The notes under the pieces are model-generated. The model made no database searches. It was given only the letters and a program-made list of their open reading frames with translations, and was not told the DNA's origin. The translations under genes and the position numbers were made by a program. A DNA stretch of 64,000 nucleotides from Roseimicrobium sp. ORNL1 (GTDB taxonomy: Bacteria; Verrucomicrobiota; Verrucomicrobiia; Verrucomicrobiales; Verrucomicrobiaceae): NCBI RefSeq assembly GCF_011044495.1, contig NZ_CP049143.1, positions 4,464,001 through 4,528,000 of the forward strand, read 5' to 3'. This document shows positions 12,377 to 49,459 of the stretch, piece by piece. Position 1 is the first letter of the stretch. Every line of letters starts with the position of its first letter.

Positions 12377-12412
12377 AGCGTTTCAAGCAGCGCCGTAGCC
12401 GATTTCAGGAAT

Positions 12413-12669
12413 ACGCCGAAGGCGTTACACATTGTCCAGCCCAAGGTAAGCTTCGCCGCGAAGCGGCAAGCGCCACCTTGGGATGCGCCATCGAGATGCT
12501 GAACGCTGAAAGCGTTCCACAGACGCGCTGCTGGGGAAAATCGCTTTCAGCGTTGGCCACGCCTTTGTTGAACTCTTTCAGAGTTCCGATGATTCATCTA
12601 ACGCACCCAAGGTGGCGCCTGCTTCGCAGGCTGACCTTGGGCTAGACAATGTGTAACGCCTTCGGCGTA
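12413..12669. repeat. Large palindrome made of two inverted REP-type units (RAYT-associated family)
   Basis: Unit 1 (12413-12520) and unit 2 (12568-12669) are in opposite orientation. Outer arms match almost perfectly: ACGCCGAAGGCGTTACACAT... at 12413-12446 against the reverse complement at 12635-12669, ending TGTGTAACGCCTTCGGCGT. Each unit holds an inner CCCAAGGT...ACCTTGGG stem with a GCGAAGC-type hairpin and ends in a small GAAC-x-CTTTCAGAGTTC-type stem. Three more units surround the transposase at 47653. The rest of the 12377-12762 gap has no gene. Confidence 0.85.
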
Positions 12670-12762
12670 AAAGCGGCTGCAATTCAACTTAGGACATCCT
12701 GACATCGTCGCTCAAGCAACACCCATCAGGGAAACAAGTACGCTATTGAAGGTTGAAGGGAG

Positions 12763-45304: not shown

Positions 45305-47488
45305 ATGAAGAAGCTTCATATTGATCTCGAAAACTGCTACGGCATCAAAAAGTTGAAGGCCGACTTTGATTTCTCGGCAAACGGCAGAGTTTTCACCATC
45401 TATGCTCCAAACGGTGTGATGAAAACATCACTCGCCAACACCTTTGGAGACCTTGCGAAAGGCGAACAATCGTCAGACCGTATCTGGCCACAAAAAGCCA
45501 CGAAAAGGATTATCACTGATGAAACCGGCGCCGAACTACCGAAGGAGGCCGTATTTGTCATTGAACCATACAATGAAGCTTACAGGTCCGATCGCTTGTC
45601 CACATTGCTCGTCAATGAGACCCTTCGGAGGAGATACCTCGAGGTTCACGCGATCATCGATGAGAAAACTGAATTGTTAGTCGATGCGCTCAAACCAAGA
45701 ACTGGCCTCAAAAGCTCCATTAAGGAGAGCCTCGCTGTTTCAATCACTCATGATCGCAACGACTTCTTCCGCGCACTCGTACGAATCAAAGAGGAAGTTC
45801 TTGAGGGCACCGATTCAACTCTCGGCGATGTAGTTTATTCAGACATCTTCAATCCCAAGGTCGAAGCAATTCTCAACGATCCTGAGTTCCGCAACTCAGT
45901 TGAAAACTACGTTAAAAAGTATGACGAACTTTTGACGAGATCGACCTTTTTCAGAAAGGGCGTCTTTACCCACAACAACGCTGCCGACGTCGCGAAGGCT
46001 TTGAGTGCCAACGGCTTTTTCAAGGCAGATCACTCCGTATACTTACGCGTTGACGGGGAAAAGAAAGAAGTAAGCACTCTTACGGAGCTCGAAAAAGCCA
46101 TTCAGTCTGAAAAAGATAGAATTCTTACCGACGAAAAGCTTAAGAACGCCTTCGAGAAAATTGACAAACAGCTCACCAAGAATGTTGAACTCAAGAAGTT
46201 CAGAGCATGCTTGGAGCAGCATCCGGCAATAGTAGCGGAACTCTCAAATCCAGAGAGGTTAAAACAGAAGCTCTGGGTCGCATATCTCATCAAAGCCAAA
46301 GAACAGTTTGAAGAAGTGCTTCGCGTTTACAATGAGGGAAAGGCAAAAATCGCAGAAATTGTGGAGGAGGCTGGCAATGAAAGAACTCGCTGGGCACAAG
46401 TCATTCATATTTTTAACGAGCGGTTTTCAGTTCCCTTTGTCGTGCGAATGGACAATCAGGTTGATGTCATTTTAAAAAGTGTTGCACCAGTTATCTCATT
46501 TGATTTTTTAGATGACTCTGACGACAGGGACTCTGAATCCGTTGGCGTTGAAGAAGGCGTCCTTCGGCAGGTGCTGAGCAATGGCGAGAAACGAGCCTTA
46601 TATCTACTCAACATCATTTTCGAAGTTGAAGCTCGAAGAACCTCTGGGCAAGAAACCCTATTCATTGTTGATGATATAGCGGATTCATTCGATTATAAGA
46701 ACAAGTACGCAATTGTAGAGTATCTCAAAGAGGTGAGCGAAGACGCCAATTTCTCCCAACTCATCTTTAGCCACAATTTCGATTTCTACCGCACAGTCTC
46801 CGGAAGGCTTGCATTGAAGCGCAATAGCCGCATGCTAGCAAGCAAAGCAAATGGCGGCGTGGAGCTGCAGGCTGAAAAATATCAGAAATCGCCATTTGCC
46901 CATTGGCGACAGAATCTCGACAAAAATGATTCAATGCTGATTGCCGCAATCCCCTTTCTCAGGAATTTGGCTGAATATTCGGGCGACGACCCGAACTTCG
47001 ACACGTTGACATCCTTGCTCCACCTCAAAAGTGATACTCAGGCGATAACCAAGTCTACGCTGGAGGGTATAGTTAAGAATATTCTCAAAGACTGTAGCAC
47101 GCTACAACTGCTACCGCCAAACAAACCCATTCTGGAGCTAATACATGATGTCGCAGATATACTTTCCAACGATCCAAACGAAGTTCCCCAGCTAGAAGAC
47201 AAGGTTGTACTATCAATGGCAATTCGGCTGAAGGCTGAAGAGTTCATGATTAGAAAAATCAATGATCCCATTTTTGTCCAGGCCATTACAGCCAACCAAA
47301 CCATCGCACTCATCAAGCGATTCAAGAACAACTTTCCAACTGAGCGTGACAATATTCAGCTCGTTGAGCAGGTGAACTTGATGACACCCGAGAACATTCA
47401 CCTCAACTCGTTCATGTACGAGCCCATCCTCGATTTGTCTGCCGGTCATTTGAAGAAGCTATACGGAAAAGTTAAGGCGATGAATTGA
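45305..47488 (+). CDS. Solitary ABC/SMC-like ATPase of the AAA_13 / RloC-like type, candidate phage-defence gene
   Basis: 727 residues. A variant Walker A, APNGVMKTS (residues 34-42), has Met where Gly precedes the Lys. A helical, charged region at about 110-400 probably forms a coiled coil (YLIKAKEQFEEVLRVYNEGK). The ABC-type signature LSNGEKRALYLL is near 424, Walker B LFIVDDIADSFD near 452 (D-D in place of D-E) and an H-loop-like FSHNFDFYR near 489. The last 230 residues, ending LMTPENIHLNSFMYEPILDL, are unassigned and may hold the effector. G+C is lower than around it: three 60-base lines counted gave 28, 33 and 27 G/C. No partner gene is adjacent. Confidence 0.7.
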   Translation: MKKLHIDLENCYGIKKLKADFDFSANGRVFTIYAPNGVMKTSLANTFGDLAKGEQSSDRIWPQKATKRIITDETGAELPKEAVFVIEPYNEAYRSDRLSTLLVNETLRRRYLEVHAIIDEKTELLVDALKPRTGLKSSIKESLAVSITHDRNDFFRALVRIKEEVLEGTDSTLGDVVYSDIFNPKVEAILNDPEFRNSVENYVKKYDELLTRSTFFRKGVFTHNNAADVAKALSANGFFKADHSVYLRVDGEKKEVSTLTELEKAIQSEKDRILTDEKLKNAFEKIDKQLTKNVELKKFRACLEQHPAIVAELSNPERLKQKLWVAYLIKAKEQFEEVLRVYNEGKAKIAEIVEEAGNERTRWAQVIHIFNERFSVPFVVRMDNQVDVILKSVAPVISFDFLDDSDDRDSESVGVEEGVLRQVLSNGEKRALYLLNIIFEVEARRTSGQETLFIVDDIADSFDYKNKYAIVEYLKEVSEDANFSQLIFSHNFDFYRTVSGRLALKRNSRMLASKANGGVELQAEKYQKSPFAHWRQNLDKNDSMLIAAIPFLRNLAEYSGDDPNFDTLTSLLHLKSDTQAITKSTLEGIVKNILKDCSTLQLLPPNKPILELIHDVADILSNDPNEVPQLEDKVVLSMAIRLKAEEFMIRKINDPIFVQAITANQTIALIKRFKNNFPTERDNIQLVEQVNLMTPENIHLNSFMYEPILDLSAGHLKKLYGKVKAMN

Positions 47489-47534
47489 TGCTCCCAGGAC
47501 GTGGCGGTGTGCTGCAAGGCAAACTACTCCGCCT

Positions 47535-47635
47535 ACGCCGAAGGCGTTGCACATCGTCCAGCCCAGGGTAAGCACGCGAAGCGGGCGCCACCCTGGGTTT
47601 GGTGGAGAAATCTATTGAACTCTGAAAGAGTTCCA
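47535..47635 (+). repeat. REP-type unit, upstream of the transposase
   Basis: Starts ACGCCGAAGGCGTTGCACAT, continues with CCAGCCCAGGGT, a small AAGCACGCGAAGCGGGCG hairpin, CCACCCTGGG and ends TTGAACTCTGAAAGAGTTCC. It ends 17 bases before the transposase ATG and is inverted relative to the unit at 48162. Same family as 12413-12669. Confidence 0.85.
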
Positions 47636-47652
47636 CAAAGAGTCGGCTCACA

Positions 47653-48108
47653 ATGTCCCAATCCATCAGCCGCGATTTCCAGCATTTCGTGTTCTCCACG
47701 AAGGAGCGTGCCACCTTCCTCACGGATGCCTCGTTCCGGCACGAGACGCATGCGTACATGGCCGGAGCGTGTGAGAACATGGAGTCACCGCCGGTGGTCA
47801 TCGGCGGGGTGGCGGATCATGTGCATGTGTTTTGCCGGTTGTCCAAGAACCTGTCCCAAGCGGCGTTCGTGCGGGATTTGAAACGCGAGACCACCAAGTG
47901 GATCAAGACCACCAACCGGAGCCTCCGGGATTTCCGGTGGCAGGCGGGTTATGGGGCGTTTTCCGTAAGCCCGTCGCATATCGATGCGCTTGCCAAATAC
48001 ATCCGGAATCAGGAGGAGCATCACCGGAAGGTCGGATTCCAGGACGAGTTCCGCCGATTGTGCAAAAAGTACGGCGCGGAGTTGGATGAGAGGTACGCGT
48101 GGGATTGA
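47653..48108 (+). CDS. REP-associated tyrosine transposase (Y1_Tnp, IS200-like)
   Basis: 151 residues. The HUH metal motif is in VADHVHVFCRL (H-x-H near residue 57), and the catalytic Tyr is in KYIRNQEEHH near residue 116. HFVFSTKERATFL at the start and GYGAFSVSPSHIDALAKYI are typical of RAYT/IS200-like proteins. There is no TnpB partner and no IS605 ends; the gene is instead bracketed by inverted REP-type units at 47535 and 48162, the hallmark of a domesticated RAYT that nicks and mobilises REP sequences. Confidence 0.85.
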   Translation: MSQSISRDFQHFVFSTKERATFLTDASFRHETHAYMAGACENMESPPVVIGGVADHVHVFCRLSKNLSQAAFVRDLKRETTKWIKTTNRSLRDFRWQAGYGAFSVSPSHIDALAKYIRNQEEHHRKVGFQDEFRRLCKKYGAELDERYAWD

Positions 48109-48161
48109 TGCGGGTGGACGCCCGGGAAAGCAACGCAACGATGCCAGTCAATGGCAGCCGT

Positions 48162-48266
48162 TTGTGGAACACCTACGGCGTTCAAGTTTCATTATCAGCT
48201 ACCCAAGGTGGCGCTTGCTCCGCAAGCTGACCTTGGGCTGGACAATGTGCAACGCCTTCGGCGTAG
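48162..48266 (-). repeat. REP-type unit, downstream of the transposase (inverted)
   Basis: Reverse complement of the 47535 unit: GTGGAACACCTACGGCGTTC at the left, ACCCAAGGTGGCGCTTGCTC, CGCAAGCTGACCTTGGGC, then GACAATGTGCAACGCCTTCG + GCGT. With the upstream unit it places the transposase between inverted repeats. Confidence 0.85.
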
Positions 48267-48440
48267 GAGCTTCCTTTGGTTATGATGCTGGGGAGATGGT
48301 GAATCAGGGATTCGGCCACGGTTCGCGCTGAGGGCAGCGTGAGCCACTTTGGCAAAGCCTCGTCTCTCCCGCCAAGACCCATCGCCATCTTCACAACAGT
48401 ATTACCAGCTCAAACCGTACGACACCCCCGTATCGAAGCT

Positions 48441-48545
48441 CCTACACCGAAGGTGTTGAACATTGTCCAGCCTGGGGTCAGTCCGCGAAGCGGACGCCAC
48501 CCCAGGTGGTTGCGGAAGAAGCTTGAACGCCGAAGGTGTTCCACA
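48441..48545 (+). repeat. REP-type unit, third copy at the transposase locus
   Basis: CCTACACCGAAGGTGTTGAA at the left, CATTGTCCAGCCTGGGGTCA, hairpin GTCCGCGAAGCGGAC, GCCACCCCAGG and a tail GCTTGAACGCCGAAGGTGTT + CCACA. GAAGCTCCTACACC here pairs with GGCGTAGGAGCTTC at the end of the 48162 unit, forming a larger palindrome. The remainder of the 48109-48616 gap has no gene. Confidence 0.82.
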
Positions 48546-48616
48546 AAATCGTAACCGTCACGCTGCGAGATGACATTTGCCAAAAGCACCGCCACGCCAC
48601 GTGGTCCTTTGTTCCC

Positions 48617-49459
48617 TCACGGCACTACGTCCTTCGCGTTGCCCTGCACGCCCAACACCTCACTCGGCACGTCCGTGCACAAAATGTTCGCGCCCATCAT
48701 CACAGCCAAATCCGCGTCGGCTTTGCTTTTGATAGGCCAGAGGGAGACTTGAAGGCCGGCGTCTTTGACTTCGCGGGCCATCTTTCGTGAGGTGGCGTCG
48801 AGGGAGACGGAGAGGCGGCCGCTGCCGATGGCTTTGGCTTCGGCGATGAGTTCGGGTGTGGGGAAGGTGCTGGTGAGGAGACCGGTGAGGACGTCGGGCT
48901 GGAGGCGCTTCATGGTGGTGAGGGAGCGCTTGTCGAAGGAGGTGAAGTGGTAGGTGCCGGCTGGGAGGAGCTTGCGCGTGGCTTCATCCACGAGGCGGCA
49001 GTAGATGGCGAGGCGGTCTTCGGTGTAGACCTTTTCCTCCTTGGTCTTCAACTCGAGGAGGAGCAGGACCTCGGGCTTGTCCTTGAAGTAGGTGAAGAGG
49101 TCGGTGACTGAGGGCACGGGGACGCCGCTGCGGGTGGTGCGCAGGGCCTGGATCTCGGCGAGGGTGAGGTCTTCGATTTTGCCTTTGCCGTTCGTGGTGC
49201 GGGCGGTGTCGGCGTCGTGCATGAGGACGAGGTGGTTGTCCTTGGTGAGGCGGATGTCCACCTCGAAGCCGCGGATACCTTTGTCGTAGCTGTGCTTGCA
49301 GCCTTCGACGGTGTTTTCATCGAACTCGAATCCTGCACCGCGATGGGCGATGACGCGGACGCCCTGGTAGAGGCCGGTGGTGGGAACGGGCTCGGAGGCG
49401 CGGGCCGTGAGGTGGCTGGCTGCCAGGGTGAGGAGGGAGAGGAAGGCGAGGCGGAGCAT
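48617..49459 (-). CDS. Exported glycerophosphodiester phosphodiesterase
   Basis: 280 residues. Signal peptide MLRLAFLSLLTLAASHLTAR-ASE. GDPD catalytic motifs: VIAHRGAGFEFDENT with the His and Glu, GFEVDIRLTKDNHLVLMHDA with the metal acids and second His, and LLLELKTKE. It hydrolyses glycerophosphodiesters to glycerol-3-phosphate and an alcohol, in the periplasm. TSFDKRSLTTMKRLQPDVLTG and SLWPIKSKADAD continue the TIM barrel. Confidence 0.9.
   Translation of the reverse strand: MLRLAFLSLLTLAASHLTARASEPVPTTGLYQGVRVIAHRGAGFEFDENTVEGCKHSYDKGIRGFEVDIRLTKDNHLVLMHDADTARTTNGKGKIEDLTLAEIQALRTTRSGVPVPSVTDLFTYFKDKPEVLLLLELKTKEEKVYTEDRLAIYCRLVDEATRKLLPAGTYHFTSFDKRSLTTMKRLQPDVLTGLLTSTFPTPELIAEAKAIGSGRLSVSLDATSRKMAREVKDAGLQVSLWPIKSKADADLAVMMGANILCTDVPSEVLGVQGNAKDVVP

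Follow-up and report, generated by a model that had tools for sequence, protein, structure and literature searches.

The window analysed here is a 64,000-nt stretch of DNA (positions 4464001-4528000 of the host genome G000, which is 7.96 Mb in one contig), and coordinates below are positions in this window unless a genome is named. Within it, a gene for a 151-aa Y1 HUH transposase stands between two inverted copies of a repeat unit, a third copy in plus orientation lies further downstream, and an inverted pair of the same unit lies far upstream (Table 1). The sequence-only reading had seen a repeat of about 100 bases in three copies around the gene. Plus, inverted and third plus copies are all present, but the unit is 108 nt long, and the layout resolves into one element, 47532-48267, with the gene in its spacer, and a solitary unit. 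The distant pair noted earlier at 12413-12669 was found at 12410-12671; it carries no gene and is a non-autonomous element. The arms of the transposase element show 87% complementarity across 67 nt (47532-47598 against 48201-48267); for 48161-48273 against 48435-48547 the value is 79% across 113 nt. The distance from hp3 of the left arm to the transposase start codon is 19 nt.

Table 1. Features of the transposase element, the solitary unit and the gene-less pair (window positions)
Feature	Position	Strand	Evidence
Left arm, three-hairpin unit (hp1 and tag, middle AGC-hairpin, hp3 and tag)	47532-47640	+	R1 114.6 bits; alignment, covariation
hp1, stem ACGCC/GGCGT, loop GAA	47535-47547	+	helix 1
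hp1 tag ACA	47551-47553	+	invariant in 39/39 units
Middle hairpin, AG before, inner GCGAAGC tip	47562-47597	+	helices 2-5, 14 pairs, 6 with both-side changes
hp3, stem GAACTCT/AGAGTTC, loop GAA	47617-47633	+	helix 6
hp3 tag ACA	47635-47637	+	invariant in 39/39 units
Transposase gene, subclass-1.2 signature	47653-48108	+	PF01797, motifs, AlphaFold fold like IS608/ISDra2 TnpA
Right arm, inverted unit	48160-48267	-	R1 119.9 bits
Solitary third unit; no inverted partner found	48441-48548	+	R1 117.4 bits
Left arm, gene-less inverted pair	12410-12524	+	R1 96.4 bits
Right arm, gene-less inverted pair; 38-nt spacer	12563-12671	-	R1 115.7 bits

Y1_Tnp (PF01797, E 2.4e-20) is the sole Pfam family matched by the 151-aa protein, which carries the motifs DHVH, WQ and YIRNQEEHH with Tyr116 and is indeed the Y1 transposase with HUH and Tyr motifs that had been recognised at first sight. 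Its AlphaFold model has a pLDDT of 93.1, and both fold comparison and profile search place IS200/IS605-type TnpA proteins, such as those of IS608 and ISDra2, as its nearest structures; the NCBIfam IS200/IS605 model gives 53.1 bits, slightly under the cut-off of 55. The RAYT structure 4er8 comes at rank 30 by fold and does not appear in the profile search, which gave 8 matches at E 0.001. Judged by its motifs and by comparison with PDB structures, the protein is assigned to TnpA-Y1 subclass 1.2. In Quentin et al. 2018 (PMC6006769), this subclass has the motifs DH[IV]H, WQ and Y---Q--HH, a median length of 148 aa, and few copies per genome with divergent paralogues, and is found mostly in Cyanobacteria and Bacteroidetes; class-2 proteins, RAYTs included, have Y---NP. 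The likeness extends to motifs, length and divergent low-copy paralogues, as the host genome has five subclass-1.2 genes, the window's type is single-copy, and the other four are 41-52% identical to it (next paralogue 52%).

Alignment of the 39 unit copies of the host genome, which is the basis of both the covariance model R1 and the covariation test, resolves the unit into three separate hairpins. The first, hp1, has five base pairs and a loop that is mostly GAA, and is followed by ACA at a fixed distance; the last, hp3, has seven base pairs, again a mostly GAA loop, and then ACA. The middle hairpin has AG in front and the GCGAAGC tip inside. Of the anatomy first described, the inner GCGAAGC tip holds; what was called a terminal GAAC/GTTC stem belongs to hp3, which forms a second hairpin-plus-tag module like hp1 and not the outer stem of a single hairpin. 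The idea of a multi-stem substrate far longer than a REP is borne out by this 108-nt, three-hairpin unit. Both hp1 and hp3 of a unit point in the same direction. Read in reverse complement, they are mostly preceded by TGTG, and a GT[AG]G foot (GTAG/GTGG) is lacking in the units, where ACA follows both hairpins in 39/39 copies.

Base pairing is kept in 99.1% of the alignment cells of the 39 units, with changes on both sides in 9 of the 26 base pairs. None of 500 shuffles matched the cells paired, the pairs changed, the cells changed or the covariation score, a count that should not be read as a probability because the unit copies are related; on one of the five measures, further pair types, 414/500 shuffles were as high. 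Shifting the partner by one column lowered the pairing to 35-46%. Moreover, the two tags of one unit resemble each other more than tags of different units do (60 of 61 units usable): the longest stretch common to the hp1 and hp3 tags is 3.68 bases within units against 2.82 between them (0/2000 permutations), and with one unit per locus 3.73 against 2.88 bases, again with no permutation as high. In 56 of these 61 units, 7-11 nt separate hp1 from the middle hairpin (the detector allowed 2-18), and in 47 the distance between hp3 and the matched gene end is at most 40 nt, the median being 22 nt.

Searched with R1, the window contains five units at E <= 1, with 96-120 bits and E <= 3.6e-19, all five belonging to the 39 sequences from which R1 was built. 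Seven folds of these units (five units, two on both strands) had z-scores of -3.2 to -5.4 against dinucleotide shuffles, one of the seven being equalled by 1/200 shuffles, and the 262-nt palindrome 12410-12671 reached z -14.8. The repeats and folds in the window are not due to chance. Rfam gave nothing in the window at gathering thresholds; a known RNA family was rejected for 47400-48700, where asX6 alone appeared, sub-threshold (E 0.34, 22.4 vs 50 bits) and inside the gene. A terminator role was rejected as well, no terminator-like site being present at the three units of 47300-48700.

Beyond the window, the unit is dispersed over the host genome. R1, built from the same copies, gave at least 39 units at >= 92.5 bits, and the next match, at 52.8 bits, is where related families begin; a DNA search gave at least 36 of the 39. 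These counts may be low because first-look candidates were partly scored (150/4540 with R1, 40/44 in the DNA search). The units are arranged as at least 18 inverted pairs, one of them with the gene, and three singles, so the further copies in orientation pairs on which the earlier reading relied do exist. The dispersed gene-less palindromes are about 255 bp long, and their spacers measure 35-42 nt in 17/17 pairs. A stop-to-stop frame of >=150 aa extends across each of five gene-less elements out of 19, and an extragenic position is hence not established. Several gene-less elements (L056, L016, L051, L009, L055) have flanks of about 25-85 bp in common beyond the units, at 73-90% identity, as if some copies had been carried along in a larger repeat or duplicated locally.

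Transposase and repeat belong together, as the sequence-only reading held: the gene lies inside an inverted pair of units and the unit is dispersed. We propose, with a probability of roughly 0.7, that 47532-48267 is a 736-bp autonomous subclass-1.2 element, that the dispersed palindromes are its REPIN-like non-autonomous relatives, and that TnpA mobilises the doublet.

Copy number follows the transposase in part. Among 68 family genomes surveyed for R1 matches at E 1e-6 (with stricter filters above 40 genomes), five have at least 20 matches and the rest 0-3. The rich genomes are the host with 43 (39 of this family), the sister species G061 with 51, G064 with 47, G065 with 56 and G067 with 25; they fall in two genera and are not independent, and the matches in G064, G065 and G067 are divergent, with at most 91 bits. 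Identical contig positions identify G064 as Verrucomicrobium sp. BvORR034 and G065 as Verrucomicrobium sp. BvORR106. In favour of the suggested dependence, four of the five carry a Y1 protein >=54% identical to the window's (best identity 96% in G061, 55% in G065 and 54% in G064). The exceptions are G067, where the best Y1, at 49%, has units of another type on its flanks (35 bits), and G007, which has a 53% Y1 and no R1 matches, the gene for this Y1 (L204) showing no inverted repeat. The R1-like units of G067 (L237, L238) look like an orphan population.

Comparison with the sister species bears on whether the units have moved. Both species have the transposase element, and the solitary third unit as well (L235 1268-1375 in G061). 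At four sites with both flanks conserved (2478k, 2878k, 7323k and 7475k) G061 has no unit; these are not clean empty sites because the bases and lengths between the flanks differ too, and a clean single-step empty site was not found in this species. At 5722k, flank conservation is one-sided only, and an overlap of 8 bases at 2478k was not counted as a target duplication. Homology between the two genomes at the transposase locus starts at 47533, the left end of the element, and the genes to the left differ, which makes the outer foot of hp1 a likely boundary. The gene left of the element (45305-47488) encodes a 727-aa ATPase that matches the PADLOC candidate defence family PDC-S46 over its full length (7e-272), and a different gene, with a match to a TIR-like effector (L235 2453-3571, 5e-8), occupies the same place in G061. 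With different genes at the same place, the element seems to border a variable, defence-like locus.

The differing sites also bear on the possibility that the system has been domesticated and is immobile, the protein processing the palindromes for the host, in a replication-fork or regulatory role, and the copies being relics. One gene per unit type, highly divergent paralogues, frames mostly without stops among the matches listed and near absence from plasmids (2/72,556 records matching at E 1e-15) would all suit such a role. Movement in the not-too-distant past is suggested, however, by sites that differ between two species of one genus and by arms up to 96% identical between elements, and we regard domestication as unlikely.

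The relations among the arms fit a doublet that multiplies as a unit. Mean arm identity within an element is 0.735. Each of the 36 paired arms has a better match in some other element (0.74-0.96) than in its own partner (0.68-0.79), and a simple local inverted duplication was rejected on this ground. Between nearest elements, the arm-to-arm match beats the crosswise one in 18/18 cases. Left and right arms thus form separate lineages that are passed on together as one doublet. An origin of the gene-less doublets as plain internal deletions of the gene element is not supported, their spacers resembling it, by eye, only in the first bases past the tag. In one element (L052, G000 7475674-7475854) the left arm looks like hp1 fused to hp3 with the middle hairpin gone, as expected from recombination between like modules. 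It may be asked whether the single unit of about 105 nt is itself the mobile entity, with hp1 as left end, hp3 as right end, the middle hairpin as cargo and pairs arising via repeated adjacent insertion. The common direction and matching tags of hp1 and hp3 fit this idea, as do the three solitary units, one of them common to the sister species. Nevertheless, 36 of 39 units are paired, the gene-less pairs have near-constant spacers, and the one-to-one correspondence of arms between related elements implies that pairs are inherited whole; a mobile single unit is quite improbable.

Inverted repeats were found between the flanks of all five subclass-1.2 genes of the host genome. By eye, their units have the three-hairpin plan in common, with differing sequence and tag, and the strict detector (hairpin, AGC-hairpin, hairpin, with an AGC start of the middle hairpin required) finds a unit at four of the five genes, on both sides at three. 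Four of the five have further copies of their unit type. When the concatenated units of the other four genes were searched in the host genome (40/62 candidates scored), at least 65 matches were obtained: at least 43 of the L032 type, two being the gene's own pair and many limited to hp1 and the middle hairpin; at least 13 of the L031 type plus one partial, 11 of them beyond its own pair; at least five of the L034 type, including an additional copy close by and a pair far away; and at least three of the L033 type, essentially its own pair with a weak match besides. The L032 type, a second and related unit family with CTCC-type tags (family B), occurs with the subclass-1.2 gene at L032/L059 (G000 6585425-6586441) and at scattered places. 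Altogether the genome has 20 Y1_Tnp matches, 17 of them over the Pfam cut-off, and 17 of 19 tested Y1 genes have inverted flanking repeats. For the class-2 (Y---N) genes (L036-L050, with L040, which has no frame, left out), inverted repeats occur in 12/14; these are long and of other designs, with a strict unit in 2/14 and on both sides in none, so that the three-hairpin plan, as far as this genome is concerned, is associated with subclass 1.2.

The arrangement also recurs in several phyla, and calling it verrucomicrobial was too narrow. From 558 relatives in public genomes the best 80 were kept; the subclass-1.2 motif Y---Q--HH is present in 78 of these 80, the search patterns themselves having required it, and two have an internal stop. 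An inverted repeat between the flanks was found in 57 of the 76 with >=200 bp on both sides, against 0/127 for distal windows of the same loci. Flanks paired from different loci matched in 67/378 cases because the hairpin consensus is shared. Of the 19 relatives with no inverted repeat, 14 are Bacteroidota members by title, suggesting that the arrangement is less regular there. The strict three-hairpin unit was present on either side in 40/76 and on both sides in 21/76, and on neither side in 36/76. Controls gave none in 5 x 76 dinucleotide shuffles and 3/720 in distal windows, and the opposite orientation was met five times upstream, five times downstream and never on both sides. Within the family, 28 loci were given, own and sister loci having been excluded beforehand, and four without such a frame were dropped; among the 24 with the signature, 18 have the strict unit and 21 an inverted repeat.

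Units from 12 loci, concatenated and searched in their 12 genomes (<=36 candidates scored per genome), gave at least 226 matches at E 1e-6. Nine genomes have five or more (>=65, 58, 32, 17, 14, 11, 11, 8 and 5), and the remaining three have 2, 2 and 1. In G073, with 11 matches, those listed lie at two places on one contig. Unit sequences differ among the 12 genomes compared, and each genome, among the matches listed, matches its own unit, the exception being G078, which also matches the L160 unit. Over 31 loci, similarity between transposases was correlated with similarity of the hp3 tag at a Spearman value of 0.14 (18/2000 permutations as high) and of the hp1 tag at -0.005 (1085/2000); two control stretches gave 0.10 (46/2000) and 0.08 (115/2000), and the relation is weak and not tag-specific.

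These brackets stand against the view that the transposase merely landed in or beside palindromic repeats of another function, such as terminators, gyrase sites or nucleoid sites. In its favour, some insertion sequences are known to lie in REPs (PMC1525189, PMC8450116), and G067 carries its 25 unit matches although none of its Y1 proteins is close. However, each of the five paralogues stands between units on either side, the unit families differing in sequence, hp3 keeps close to the gene end in most units, the bracket recurs in several phyla with none in the distal controls, and terminator-like sites are lacking at the three units by the gene. Chance landing is accordingly a distinctly improbable account.

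The autonomous element and its gene-less relatives can be compared with several known systems. REPIN doublets multiply as units, and the dispersed inverted doublets here do likewise; RAYT/TnpAREP systems with their REPs, REPINs and BIMEs also have a single-copy Y1 gene between inverted hairpin repeats and a short tag beside each hairpin. The differences lie in the protein, which has a class-2 motif in RAYTs and a class-1 motif here, and in the repeat, one 20-40-nt REP with the tag GTRG there and a 108-nt three-hairpin unit here, with a tag such as ACA, ATA or ATC on the 3' side of the hairpin (on the other strand TGT, TAT or GAT). In reverse complement, the module resembles a REP in its layout of tetranucleotide and hairpin, but the tetranucleotide is TGTG. 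A true class-2 RAYT-REP system with long REPs, which the inverted repeats at a single-copy Y1 gene and the dispersed doublets might suggest from what is described for RAYTs in PMC2817692, is very improbable given YIRNQEEHH instead of Y---NP, no GT[AG]G (GTAG/GTGG) foot, and IS200/IS605-type TnpA of IS608 and ISDra2 as best PDB relatives with 4er8 at rank 30 by fold, and the label RAYT given at first is dropped. The system works like RAYT-REPIN and is not a member of it.

In IS200/IS605, the LE and RE hairpins lie in the same direction on one strand; IS608 and ISDra2 have the same fold and HUH and Tyr motifs as the present system. Known IS200/IS605 members are described without terminal inverted repeats in PMC2817692, whereas the present element has inverted 108-nt arms. 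Subclass 1.1 has multiple near-identical copies (on average 4.8, at 99.4% identity; PMC6006769), in contrast to one full copy with gene-less doublets here.

TIRtrons are a further system for comparison. As characterised by Di Nocera et al. 2013 (PMC3733652), they have a Y1 gene (TIRYT) and long inverted repeats, some 'double palindromic', with repeats elsewhere as single, dimeric or grouped copies and a GGGGWSAS motif in the majority. Long terminal inverted repeats with dispersed copies are present here too, but GGGGWSAS occurs in only 3/39 units. TIRYT proteins are class 2, mostly 2.1, with a C-terminal HTH extension, whereas the present protein has 151 aa, a class-1 motif and Y1_Tnp only. 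Among the 26 TIRYT examples, according to PMC6006769, 20 are in subclass 2.1, six in 2.2 and 2.5, and none in 1.2.

For subclass 1.2, the same paper gives 'no' in the REP column and states that it 'does not share IS properties', generally without IS200-type ends; here there are three-hairpin inverted ends and dispersed doublets. The automatic REP search of that study, as described there, needed a GTAG or GTGG foot, with human inspection. The lack of REPs and ends is an observation of that paper and not a trait of the protein, and we dispute it here. A report of cognate repeats for subclass 1.2 was not found in the open-licence PubMed Central papers searched, and the TIRtron proteins lie outside this subclass.

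The comparisons of sequence establish the pairing of units, their compensated folds, their dispersal, the inheritance of whole doublets and the recurrence in several phyla, and on this ground a mechanism may be outlined. In IS608/ISDra2 and TnpAREP, a Y1 dimer recognises single-stranded hairpins and an adjacent short guide sets the cut. In the present system, the single-copy gene between two inverted three-hairpin units would be the autonomous element, and the gene-less palindromes, with the same two distinct arms and a near-constant 35-42-nt spacer, would be its substrates in the same way. A TnpA dimer may bind the hairpin-plus-tag modules on single-stranded DNA, two per unit and in the same direction, and Tyr116 would nick the outer foot of hp1 or a position close to it. 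The doublet could then be mobilised with or without the gene, and excision or copying would most likely take place while replication leaves the palindrome single-stranded. A role in spacing or orienting the two modules is probable for the middle hairpin, and hp3 near the start codon may also restrain translation.

A wider reading, for and against which we see even odds, is that subclass-1.2 TnpA represents a third Y1 design, neither IS200/IS605 nor RAYT-REP, that spans phyla and has inverted compound three-hairpin ends, with private gene-less doublets in Planctomycetota, Verrucomicrobiota, Bacteroidota and others and a unit specific to its transposase.

The host genome contains many coexisting Y1-repeat systems and is a good subject for studying how such populations coexist. 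Genome-resident palindromes like those of RAYT-REPIN are extended to a different branch of Y1 proteins, and the extension reaches phyla for which the open-licence literature searched holds little on such repeats. Moreover, a transposase class described as having no DNA partner is given one, which makes its biochemistry directly testable as to hairpin, strand and tag.
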